Shown here piece after piece: positions 24,678 to 47,895 of a DNA stretch of 64,000 bases. Positions within the stretch are counted from its first letter, which is position 1; every line of letters starts with the position of its first letter. The stretch covers positions 62,001 through 126,000 of the forward strand of contig OMVT01000006.1 in NCBI GenBank assembly GCA_900314535.1. Reading direction: 5' to 3'. Origin of the DNA: an uncultured Olsenella sp. (GTDB lineage: Bacteria; Actinomycetota; Coriobacteriia; Coriobacteriales; Atopobiaceae). The notes beneath the pieces were generated by a model. That model searched no databases. It was given only the letters and a program-made list of their open reading frames with translations, and had not been told where the DNA came from. The position numbers were made by a program, and so were the translations under genes.

Positions 24678-24754
24678 GCGGCGTTACCTCAGCTGGATAG
24701 AGGAACTGACTACGAATCAGTCTGTCATAGGTTCGAATCCTATACGCCGCACCA
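24678..24754 (+). tRNA. tRNA-Arg(ACG)
   Basis: 77 nt with encoded CCA. GCGGCGT/ACGCCGC acceptor stem; anticodon loop CTACGAA gives ACG, normally edited to ICG to read CGU/CGC/CGA; GTTCGAATC T-loop. Confidence 0.96.
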
Positions 24755-44630: not shown

Positions 44631-46034
44631 CTACCTGGCCTCTTGCGGCAGCTTCTCCTTGTCGGCAGCAAGGCGTGCCGCTGCCTCCTCAAGCTGTGCG
44701 GCCACGGCCTTCTTGCCAGTGCCGCCGTAGGTGTTCCTTGCATAGGCAATGGCCGCAGGGTCGAGGTCGCGTGCGATATCGTCCTCGAAAAGCGGGCTTG
44801 CTGCCTTGAATTCTGCAGCCGTGAGGTCTTCCAGGCCCTTGCCGTGCTGCTCGCAATAGAGCACGAGCTCGCCCACGATGCGGTGCGCCTCGCGGAACGG
44901 CACGCCCTTCTTTGCGAGGTAGTCGGCCACATCGGTAGCGGCAGTGAAGCCCTTGCCTGCCTCGTCGAGCATCCTGTCCTTGTTCACCTGCATGGTCTCG
45001 AGCATGCCGGAAGCGATCTGCATGCAGTCAGAGAGCGTCTTTGCGGCATCGAGCGGACCTTCCTTGCACTCCTGGAGGTCCTTGTTGTAGGCAAGCGGGA
45101 GTCCCTTCATCGTCGTGAGAAGGGCCATGAGGTCGCCGTAGACGCGGCCGCACTTGCCACGGGTAAGCTCGGCGAAGTCGGGATTCTTCTTCTGCGGCAT
45201 GATCGAGGAGCCCGTGGAGTAGGAATCGGAGAGCGTGATGAAGCCGAACTCAGTCGAGCTCCAGAGCACGATCTCTTCGCAGAGACGGGAGAGATGCATC
45301 ATCGAGACGGAGCAGGCGTACTCGAGATCGAGCAGATAGTCCCTGTCAGAGACTGCATCGAGCGAGTTCGGAATCGTCGTGGCAAAGCCCAGGAGCTCCG
45401 AGGTATAGGCACGGTCGAGGGGATACGTCGTGCCAGCAAGGGCGGCAGCACCGAGCGGATTGGCATCCGCTCCGTCATAGGCAGCCTCAAGGCGCACATA
45501 GTCGCGGCCAAACATCCAGAAGTAGGCCAGAAGATGGTGAGAGAGCTGGACGGGCTGTGCATGCTGGAGATGCGTGTATCCCGGAAGCACGATGCCCTCA
45601 TACTTCTTTGCAAGGTCCAGAAGCACGCCCCTGAGCTCGAGGTTTCCCTGCATGAGATCGCGGGAGAGGTCCTTCGCAAGAAGGCGGATATCGACAGCCA
45701 CCTGGTCGTTCCTCGAGCGCCCGGTATGGAGACGCGCCCCCGGGGCTCCCACCATCTTCGTGAGCTTCGACTCGACCGCCATGTGGATGTCCTCGTCGTT
45801 CACATCCCACTCGAAGGTGCCGTCCTTGATTTCGCCTGCAATCTTCTCGAGGCCGGCATCGATTGCCTTCTGGTCCTCATCCGAGATGATGCCCTGGCGG
45901 GCAAGCATCTTCGCATGGGCACGCGATGCCCTGATATCCTGCTGCGCCATCGCCTTGTCCACCTCGAGCGATGCACCGAATTCCTGTGTGAAGGCATCGA
46001 CGCCCTTCTCGAACCTGCCACCCCAGAGAGCCAT
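44631..46034 (-). CDS. argH: Argininosuccinate lyase
   Basis: Last step of arginine synthesis: argininosuccinate gives arginine and fumarate. 467 residues, normal. Signatures: MALWGGRFEKG at the start, TGRSRNDQVA, GYTHLQHAQPVQLSHHL, and GSSIMPQKKNPD with the catalytic serine loop. GAGGGAGGAG precedes ATG 46034. It follows argG, but a strong terminator sits between, so it needs its own promoter; a CATACT element about 35 bases upstream is a candidate. Confidence 0.97.
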   Translation of the reverse strand: MALWGGRFEKGVDAFTQEFGASLEVDKAMAQQDIRASRAHAKMLARQGIISDEDQKAIDAGLEKIAGEIKDGTFEWDVNDEDIHMAVESKLTKMVGAPGARLHTGRSRNDQVAVDIRLLAKDLSRDLMQGNLELRGVLLDLAKKYEGIVLPGYTHLQHAQPVQLSHHLLAYFWMFGRDYVRLEAAYDGADANPLGAAALAGTTYPLDRAYTSELLGFATTIPNSLDAVSDRDYLLDLEYACSVSMMHLSRLCEEIVLWSSTEFGFITLSDSYSTGSSIMPQKKNPDFAELTRGKCGRVYGDLMALLTTMKGLPLAYNKDLQECKEGPLDAAKTLSDCMQIASGMLETMQVNKDRMLDEAGKGFTAATDVADYLAKKGVPFREAHRIVGELVLYCEQHGKGLEDLTAAEFKAASPLFEDDIARDLDPAAIAYARNTYGGTGKKAVAAQLEEAAARLAADKEKLPQEAR

Positions 46035-46260: not shown

Positions 46261-47490
46261 CTACTCGCCGTCCTGGAGGCCAGAGCCCGGGCCCTGGACA
46301 CGGGACCAGGTCTTCGACTGCAGGCCGTGGATGATGATGAAGCCCTTGGATGCGGTGTGATCGAAGGTGTCGCCCTCGTCGTAGGTAGCCAGGTTGTAGT
46401 CATAGAGGCTGTACGGCGAACGCAGGCCGTCGACGAAGAGGCCGCCCTTGCAGAGCTTGATGCGGACCTCGCCCGTCACATACTGCTGCGTGTAGGCGTT
46501 GTAGGCATCGATTGCCTTGCGGTTCTGGGAGTACCAGAGGCCACGATAGACCGTGGAGGCCCACTCGACATCGAGCTTTGCCTTCTGCTTCAGCGTCTCG
46601 GCGTCGAGGCAGAGGGTCTCGAGGGACTGGTGTGCCTGGATGAGGAGAAGCGCTGCCGGGCACTCATAGCACTCACGGCTCTTGATGCCGACAACACGGT
46701 CCTCGATCATATCGATGCGGCCAAAGCCGTTGCGGCCGGCAATCTCGTTTGCCTTGATGATGCAGTCGAGAAGAGACATCTTCTCGCCATTGATCGAGAC
46801 GGGCACACCCTTCTCGAAGCCGATGACGACGGTCTCAGGATCTGCAGGGCAGTCCTCCGGGTTCTTTGTCATCGTCCAGATGTCCGCAGGCGGCTGGTTC
46901 CAGGTGTCCTCGAGGACGCCGCACTCGATAGCGCGGCCCCAGAGGTTGTCGTCGATGGAGTACGGCTTCTTGTGGGTCGTAGGCACGGGCACGCCGTGGG
47001 CAGCTGCCCACTCCATCTCGGAGTCACGGGTCGTGAGGTCCCACTCACGGACAGGAGCGATGATCTCGAGCGTCGGGTCGAGGGCACGGATGCTCGTCTC
47101 GAAACGGACCTGGTCATTGCCCTTGCCGGTGCAGCCGTGGGCGATGTACTTTGCGCCGTACTTGTGGGCAATCTCGACGAGATGCTTGGAGATGATGGGG
47201 CGGGAGAGTGCGGAAAGCAGCGGATAGATGCCCTCGTACTTGCCGTTTGCCCAGATGGCTTTCGACAGGATCGTCTCTGCGTACTCCTCGCGCATATCGA
47301 TGGCCTCAGAGGCGATGGCGCCCATATCGAGTGCCTTCTGCTTGATCCAGGAAAGGTCCTTCTCGTCCTGGCCGACGTTGCCGCAGATTGCGATGACGTC
47401 CATGTTCTTCTCTACCTGCAGCCACTTGACGATGACGGAAGTATCGAGTCCGCCCGAGTATGCAAGTACGACCTTCTCTTTTTCTGCCAT
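46261..47490 (-). CDS. argG: Argininosuccinate synthase
   Basis: ATP-dependent joining of citrulline and aspartate. 409 residues, normal. The N-terminal PP-loop AYSGGLDTSVIVKW, the citrulline/aspartate region HGCTGKGNDQVRFE and NLWGRAIECG are intact. GAGGAG lies 9 bases before ATG 47490. The 250-bp leader upstream carries an arginine-rich short ORF and an intrinsic terminator, suggesting transcription attenuation by arginine supply. argH follows after a terminator. No argC, argJ, argB, argD or argF is in the window, so citrulline may come from elsewhere, such as a deiminase pathway or distant genes. Confidence 0.97.
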   Translation of the reverse strand: MAEKEKVVLAYSGGLDTSVIVKWLQVEKNMDVIAICGNVGQDEKDLSWIKQKALDMGAIASEAIDMREEYAETILSKAIWANGKYEGIYPLLSALSRPIISKHLVEIAHKYGAKYIAHGCTGKGNDQVRFETSIRALDPTLEIIAPVREWDLTTRDSEMEWAAAHGVPVPTTHKKPYSIDDNLWGRAIECGVLEDTWNQPPADIWTMTKNPEDCPADPETVVIGFEKGVPVSINGEKMSLLDCIIKANEIAGRNGFGRIDMIEDRVVGIKSRECYECPAALLLIQAHQSLETLCLDAETLKQKAKLDVEWASTVYRGLWYSQNRKAIDAYNAYTQQYVTGEVRIKLCKGGLFVDGLRSPYSLYDYNLATYDEGDTFDHTASKGFIIIHGLQSKTWSRVQGPGSGLQDGE

Positions 47491-47583: not shown

Positions 47584-47606
47584 AAAAATGCCCGGCGATG
47601 CCGGGC
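47584..47606 (-). terminator. Intrinsic terminator in the argG leader (attenuator)
   Basis: A 7-bp GC-only stem (GCCCGGC / GCCGGGC, 47600-47606 with 47590-47596, 3-base loop) followed on the minus strand by a T tract (47584-47588). It lies 94 bases before the argG start and 53 bases after the leader ORF stop, in the position of an attenuator. Confidence 0.8.
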
Positions 47607-47616
47607 GAAGTCAGGT

Positions 47617-47639
47617 TTAAGCTTTGGAAAATCGCTTAA
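47617..47639 (-). repeat. Inverted repeat between leader ORF and attenuator
   Basis: TTAAGC (47617-47622) and GCTTAA (47634-47639) can pair with an 11-base loop in the argG leader RNA. It is one of three mutually neighbouring structures, and its longer arms partly compete with the pairing of GGGAC (47680-47684) with GTCCC (47642-47646). Confidence 0.6.
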
Positions 47640-47658
47640 GCGGGACTGCCACCACGTG

Positions 47659-47745
47659 TCATCGCAGCGTGATTCGTCGTCCCTGACGTCGGCAGGCCAC
47701 CTCGTTCGCATCGAACATGTTCCTATGTGCGAACGTACGCTTCAT
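47659..47745 (-). CDS. Arginine-rich leader peptide of argG
   Basis: 28-codon ORF, ATG 47743-47745 to TGA 47659-47661, with AGGAGG 8 bases before the start. Seven codons are Arg (positions 3, 8, 19, 20, 23, 24, 28), five of them in the last ten sense codons; the late cluster reads CGA CGT, then CGA CGA, then CGA just before the stop. This is the layout of his, trp and leu attenuator peptides, with arginine as the expected regulatory amino acid and argG, an arginine gene, downstream. Too short for a routine gene call. Expected to act in cis through ribosome stalling rather than as a stable product. Inference from sequence only. Confidence 0.75.
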   Translation of the reverse strand: MKRTFAHRNMFDANEVACRRQGRRITLR

Positions 47746-47771
47746 TGCGTGGCCTCCTCATAAGCGAGTGG

Positions 47772-47828: not shown

Positions 47829-47834
47829 ACTATA
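47829..47834 (-). promoter_or_regulatory. Possible -10 of the argG leader transcript
   Basis: TATAGT on the minus strand, about 85 bases before the leader ORF; the matching -35 is weak. A hairpin closing the upstream gene (47840-47870) overlaps the expected spacer. Confidence 0.35.
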
Positions 47835-47870: not shown

Positions 47871-47895
47871 TTGCCATCAGATTGAAACACAATGA

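Follow-up and report, generated by a model that had tools for sequence, protein, structure and literature searches.

How is argG, the gene for argininosuccinate synthase, controlled in the Coriobacteriales? The question is raised by the region upstream of argG in a 64,000-nucleotide stretch of an uncultured Olsenella genome, the whole of which we call the window. Bacterial arginine synthesis is described as being under ArgR or T-box control. A first-pass annotation had proposed an arginine attenuator for this region, claiming a 28-codon open reading frame (ORF; 47745-47659) led by AGGAGG and holding 7 Arg codons, then a terminator with a GC-only stem, then argG, and all of these lie where it put them. 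Our analysis supports the attenuator interpretation through conservation and covarying competing helices: upstream of argG there is very probably a ribosome-mediated transcription attenuator that senses charged tRNA-Arg(ICG), and its control probably extends to argGH. Computed support comes from the conserved ORF, its codon choice, the terminator, the competing helices and the link to argG.

In the mechanism that we infer, from a predicted transcription start and promoter through translation and stalling at CGA to the arginine response, the leader ORF would be translated while RNA polymerase moves ahead. With little charged tRNA-Arg(ICG) available, the ribosome would slow at the conserved CGA/CGY codons (RRxxRR), covering a strand within them (segment 1) but not the ORF end. 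This end and the strand past the stop codon could then pair with the 5' arm and loop of the terminator as an antiterminator, and polymerase would read into argG. When arginine is plentiful, a ribosome at the stop codon would mask the antiterminator strand, so that the terminator forms and transcription ends before argG.

Conservation and codon choice of the leader ORF

The upstream regions of 80 argG loci fetched from Coriobacteriia were read. In roughly half of them a leader ORF sits in the corresponding position; its N-terminus varies and its core is retained, with the DNA CGA CGY CAG NNN CGA CGA/T NNC. The encoded RRQxRR is found in nearly all leaders read across divergent genera, with Gln changed to His in the L009 group, while the residue following RR differs among relatives (I, T, V, S, N or F). 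The strict DNA pattern matches 56 of 398 Coriobacteriia genomes, once in each, and the fetched matches lie upstream of argG except that of L090 (genome G181), which has a different reading context and is attributed to chance. A covariance model, R1, matches 71 of 396 genomes of the class; its newly found matches, where fetched, are also upstream of argG except for two weak ones. Atopobiaceae, the window's own family, and a single genus of another family conserve, ahead of argG, the ORF, Arg codons and terminator proposed by the first-pass annotation. Most other families read have an argR-like ORF upstream of argG, or no leader. Occurrence of the element at other genes was considered and rejected: in the window's own genome one-mismatch pattern matches are near background, and class-wide the R1 matches outside argG are the two weak ones. 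Elsewhere in the phylum there are five strict matches, none near argG, which are regarded as chance.

A frame test used 24 divergent representatives with upstream identity below 70%. The core frame is open from a Shine-Dalgarno sequence and start codon in 22 of them, as against 1 and 0 of 24 for the other two frames; in the two exceptions, L070 and L109, the ORF is open with a start outside the Shine-Dalgarno rule applied. Because the frame, Shine-Dalgarno sequence and start are conserved, and the RRQxRR core is kept over a varying N-terminus, the leader is, judged by comparative sequence, a real ORF and no chance one. This conservation is stronger evidence than the Arg counts, for which at least 7 Arg in 27 codons has a chance of P ~0.001 and at least 5 in the last ten codons, the number found, P ~0.0002 at the Arg frequency of the window.

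Collinsella-type genomes carry a variant leader with the C-terminus RRQRAISRRR-stop, or PRRR-stop in L061 and L062. In these leaders (L057, L058, L181-L188 and similar) the Arg codons end in CCCGACG, which could form a helix with a CGTCGGG located further on and followed by T's. One arm of a terminator may thus be made of the Arg codons, a logic that may differ from that of the Atopobiaceae.

The choice among Arg codons is strongly biased. In about 55 distinct ORFs, once L059 and L076 are set aside as evident false positives, the core Arg codons are 174 CGA, 80 CGC, 25 CGT, 1 CGG and 2 AGG, so that CGA, CGC and CGT make up 279 of 282 as against 628 of 975 in the genes of the window. CGA is the rarest Arg codon of those genes (2.8%) but accounts for 62% of the core codons, and a CGA-CGA pair occurs in them 0 times in 15582. 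In the 23 leaders aligned for the RNA comparison, Arg codons 1 and 5 always have A in third position, a base that takes part in neither paired state. CGA, CGC and CGT are all read by one tRNA with the anticodon ACG, CGA being decoded via inosine as in other bacteria. The 50 tRNA genes found in the genome include only the Arg anticodons ACG, CCG, CCT and TCT, and therefore CGA needs tRNA-Arg(ACG). The gene for this sole CGA reader is itself in the window, at 24678-24754 (+). In the Salmonella his leader, de-attenuation by an Arg codon pair is, with most Arg partner codons, strongest when the pair contains CGA (PMC4046918), and leaders that prefer one isoacceptor are accounted for by selective charging theory (PMC1183508).

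Competing helices and modelled ribosome occlusion

Two sets of helices in the leader RNA covary among relatives. Segment 1, which comprises the NNN codon and the next C, pairs with the post-stop segment 2 in 79% of alignment cells, with double-sided changes at two pairs and a z of -2.7 when partners are swapped. The antiterminator joins the ORF end GCGAYG to CRTCGC of the terminator, the next GTGYTGYY to the RRCRGCAC just before it, and segment 2 to a segment 3. It is paired in 77.7% of cells as against 29-50% in slid controls, with 28 double-changed cells, and 1 of 500 shuffles reaches as high a value, although the shuffles keep relatedness and these figures are not probabilities. Among 21 representatives the strands pair better with their own partners than with swapped ones (z -5.0; -0.3 for an upstream control strand), and compensating changes in the pairing are seen by eye between L104 and L105. 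Given the covariation and the partner-swap tests, an antiterminator mutually exclusive with the terminator is supported. A terminator stem-loop with a T tract lies 80-105 nt past the core in most relatives, being weak or not detected in a few; in the window its stem is GCCCGGC-ATC-GCCGGGC, with 7 GC pairs, followed by ATTTTT. In some species conservation runs beyond the stop codon. A search of Rfam 15 with the leader matched no curated family, T-box included, the sole SorX match being sub-threshold and at the terminator.

These comparisons also refine the pairings of the first-pass annotation. Its GGGAC/GTCCC helix covaries and GTCCC (47646-47642) was correctly placed, but GGGAC is at 47683-47679, one base off. 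Of its alternative pairings, TTAAGC/GCTTAA belongs to the supported antiterminator, in which GCGATG (47665-47660) pairs with CATCGC (47600-47595); the pairing of CGACGTCAGG with CCTGACTTCG contains one mismatch, occurs only in the closest relatives and is not the conserved antiterminator.

When ribosome occlusion was modelled in the 21 representatives, the mean terminator probability was 0.35, 0.33, 0.46 and 0.57 with the A site at Arg 1, 2, 5 and 6, and 0.94 at the stop codon, where it was higher in 16 of 21 and lower in 0. The model thus predicts that a ribosome stalled at the conserved Arg codons favours antitermination, and one at the stop codon termination. The ribosome-free RNA of the window favours the terminator, as trp attenuators do, and that of the Thermophilibacter group the antiterminator. 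In sequence and model the leader combines an ORF led by a Shine-Dalgarno sequence, a cluster of codons for the amino acid of the pathway and a terminator between ORF and gene; to these are added an exclusive antiterminator and control codons within a strand whose masking favours it, this last being weaker in the window.

Features of the argG leader region, with positions in the window and the basis of each assignment
Feature	Position	Strand	Detail and basis
TGTTTC box	47884..47889	-	55 nt upstream of -10; recurrence and fixed spacing
Predicted -10 hexamer TATAGT of leader transcript	47829..47834	-	Most relatives have TATAGT or TAAAGT ahead of the leader ORF
Shine-Dalgarno AGGAGG	47753..47758	-	7 nt before ATG; sequence
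Leader peptide ORF, MKRTFAHRNMFDANEVACRRQGRRITLR-stop	47659..47745	-	28 codons; sequence and relatives
Control codons CGA CGT CAG GGA CGA CGA (RRQGRR)	47674..47691	-	Conserved core; Arg codons nearly all read by tRNA-Arg(ACG)
Segment 1 GGGAC, within control codons	47679..47683	-	Helix with segment 2; relatives show changes on both sides
Antiterminator strand GCGATG, ORF end	47660..47665	-	Pairs with terminator CATCGC; GCGACG/CGTCGC in relatives
Segment 2 GTCCC, partner of segment 1	47642..47646	-	Covarying pairing
Lower antiterminator hairpin GGTGG/TCGCC, AGTC/GACT, TTAAGC/GCTTAA	47604..47653	-	Fold; equivalent helices covary in relatives
Intrinsic terminator stem-loop GCCCGGCATCGCCGGGC	47590..47606	-	Sequence, alignment
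Terminator T tract ATTTTT	47584..47589	-	Sequence
argG, argininosuccinate synthase, regulated gene	46261..47490	-	Sequence; close relatives in 80 loci
argH, argininosuccinate lyase, downstream of argG	44631..46034	-	Identified by eye from sequence

Promoter, TGTTTC box and ArgR

The attenuator would require transcription to start upstream of 47584, as the first-pass annotation recognised, and the conserved -10-like hexamer upstream of the ORF fits such a start without proving it; a consensus scan for a sigma-70 site found none. A TGTTTC box with the approximate consensus TGTTTCNAnnnGRAnTC stands ahead of argG in 60 of the 71 leader loci (3.9 expected) and, near chance, in 4 of 46 leaderless loci. 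Its distance to the -10 hexamer downstream is exactly 45 or 55/56 nt, values that differ by one turn of the helix. The box is a probable protein-binding site of the leader promoter, and by its recurrence and spacing suggests an activator of argG. Between the predicted start and the Shine-Dalgarno sequence, a stem GCAGGCA/TGCCTGC (window ~47790-47770, -) recurs with changed bases in several genera. Gene order downstream is argG, argH and then purB, the latter two identified by eye, and argH is probably cotranscribed with argG.

No ArgR-like box (at least 12/14) was found in the 71 leader loci, the window included, whereas 11 of 46 loci without the leader have one, a comparison that ignores kinship. 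The ArgR gene of this genome stands apart from other arg genes; argCJBD is on another contig, and the best ARG-box match upstream of argC scores 12/14. Given leader loci without ArgR-like boxes, a retained ArgR and the match upstream of argC, it seems that argG alone has exchanged ArgR for attenuation. That the leader merely substitutes for a lost ArgR is ruled out by the presence of ArgR in most genomes, this one among them. ArgR was not found in the genomes of L010, L015, L024, L040, L043, L070 and L072, 6 of which carry the argG leader, and draft incompleteness is a possible cause.

Alternative readings and known systems

Several points weigh against an attenuator that senses charged tRNA. 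The invariant Gln codon (CAG) has no account in arginine sensing, and ArgR is encoded in 44 of 51 genomes, including that of the window. The occlusion model is an equilibrium fold with an assumed ribosome footprint; 5 of 21 representatives show no modelled switch, and that of the window's own leader is weak apart from Arg 5, where the probability of the terminator is 0.45, as against 0.93 at both Arg 1 and Arg 2, 0.98 at Arg 6 and 1.0 at the stop codon. The Gln is better suited to a nascent-peptide sensor, in which RRQxRR would arrest the ribosome upon free arginine (or ornithine or citrulline) like SpeFL or the fungal arginine attenuator peptide, the arrest setting the switch. RRQxRR is invariant over divergent genera and its Gln nearly so, the latter being superfluous for codon sensing, and an Arg-Arg core is conserved in the speF leader of Salmonella (PMC6386406). 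A peptide sensor nevertheless sits poorly with constrained synonymous sites, such as the invariant A of Arg codons 1 and 5, with the near absence of CGG, AGA and AGG from the core, and with the varying residue after RR and the different Collinsella C-terminus built from the same codons. An excess of arginine would moreover, by arresting the ribosome, turn argG on, the opposite of what a biosynthetic gene calls for, and we consider this reading quite improbable. That RRQxRR serves both as slow codons and as an arrest peptide for arginine or a related metabolite, uniting codon and nascent-chain sensing in one leader, is conceivable but unlikely.

Conserved unpaired bases beside variable, covarying helices, together with the conservation beyond the stop codon, might also indicate a riboswitch or protein-binding RNA that needs no translation and whose bases read as Arg codons by accident. 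This is very unlikely given a Shine-Dalgarno sequence, start and frame kept while the peptide N-terminus diverges, an antiterminator strand that accounts for the post-stop conservation, the lack of an Rfam match and a Collinsella variant that retains the codons in another RNA context. Finally, the terminator could be a constitutive brake or the end of an upstream transcript, with argG controlled at its promoter, for instance through the TGTTTC box at its fixed -10 spacing in 60 of the 71 leader loci. Such control is compatible with attenuation as a second layer, but as the sole explanation it leaves the ORF, codon choice and covarying antiterminator unaccounted for and is hardly credible.

The preferred attenuator for argG shares with those of trp, his, leu and thr a short ORF with control codons, pairing of the codon strand with segment 2, a mutually exclusive antiterminator and intrinsic terminator, and a biosynthetic gene downstream. 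It differs in being arginine-specific, in control codons that belong nearly all to one isoacceptor and favour the rarest codon CGA, and in an antiterminator strand made of the ORF end and post-stop region, which pairs with terminator arm and loop. The fungal arginine attenuator peptide (arg-2/CPA1) is likewise a small upstream peptide regulating an arginine-pathway gene, but is eukaryotic and acts translationally through arginine-triggered nascent-chain arrest. The closest system found is orf34 of the Salmonella speF leader (PMC6386406), with consecutive Arg codons in a leader ORF, arginine sensing and alternative mRNA folds; it targets ornithine decarboxylase, works through Rho, RNase G and the ribosome-binding site and has an HIRR core, absent from the argG leaders read, where the argG leader has an intrinsic terminator and RRQxRR. 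Within the same phylum, leader peptides occur in trp, cys and leu elements, and the 2005 actinobacterial survey that describes them (PMC1262725) reports arginine operons to lack conserved RNA regulatory structures in their upstream regions; the part of its genome list consulted contains no Coriobacteria. The literature searched, with subscription papers outside its scope, contained no leader-peptide attenuator for bacterial arginine biosynthesis. The attenuator is thus of a classical kind, and its arginine-biosynthetic specificity provisionally appears new.

If the attenuator is real, classical leader-peptide attenuation would extend to one more amino acid, arginine, in Coriobacteriales of gut and rumen. 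The attenuator's natural, CGA-favouring control codons, read almost exclusively by a single tRNA, make selective charging (PMC1183508) and the slow inosine reading of CGA directly testable. The absence of ArgR-like boxes from leader loci suggests an evolutionary swap of repressor for attenuator at one gene, and ArgG would very likely be made only when arginine is short.
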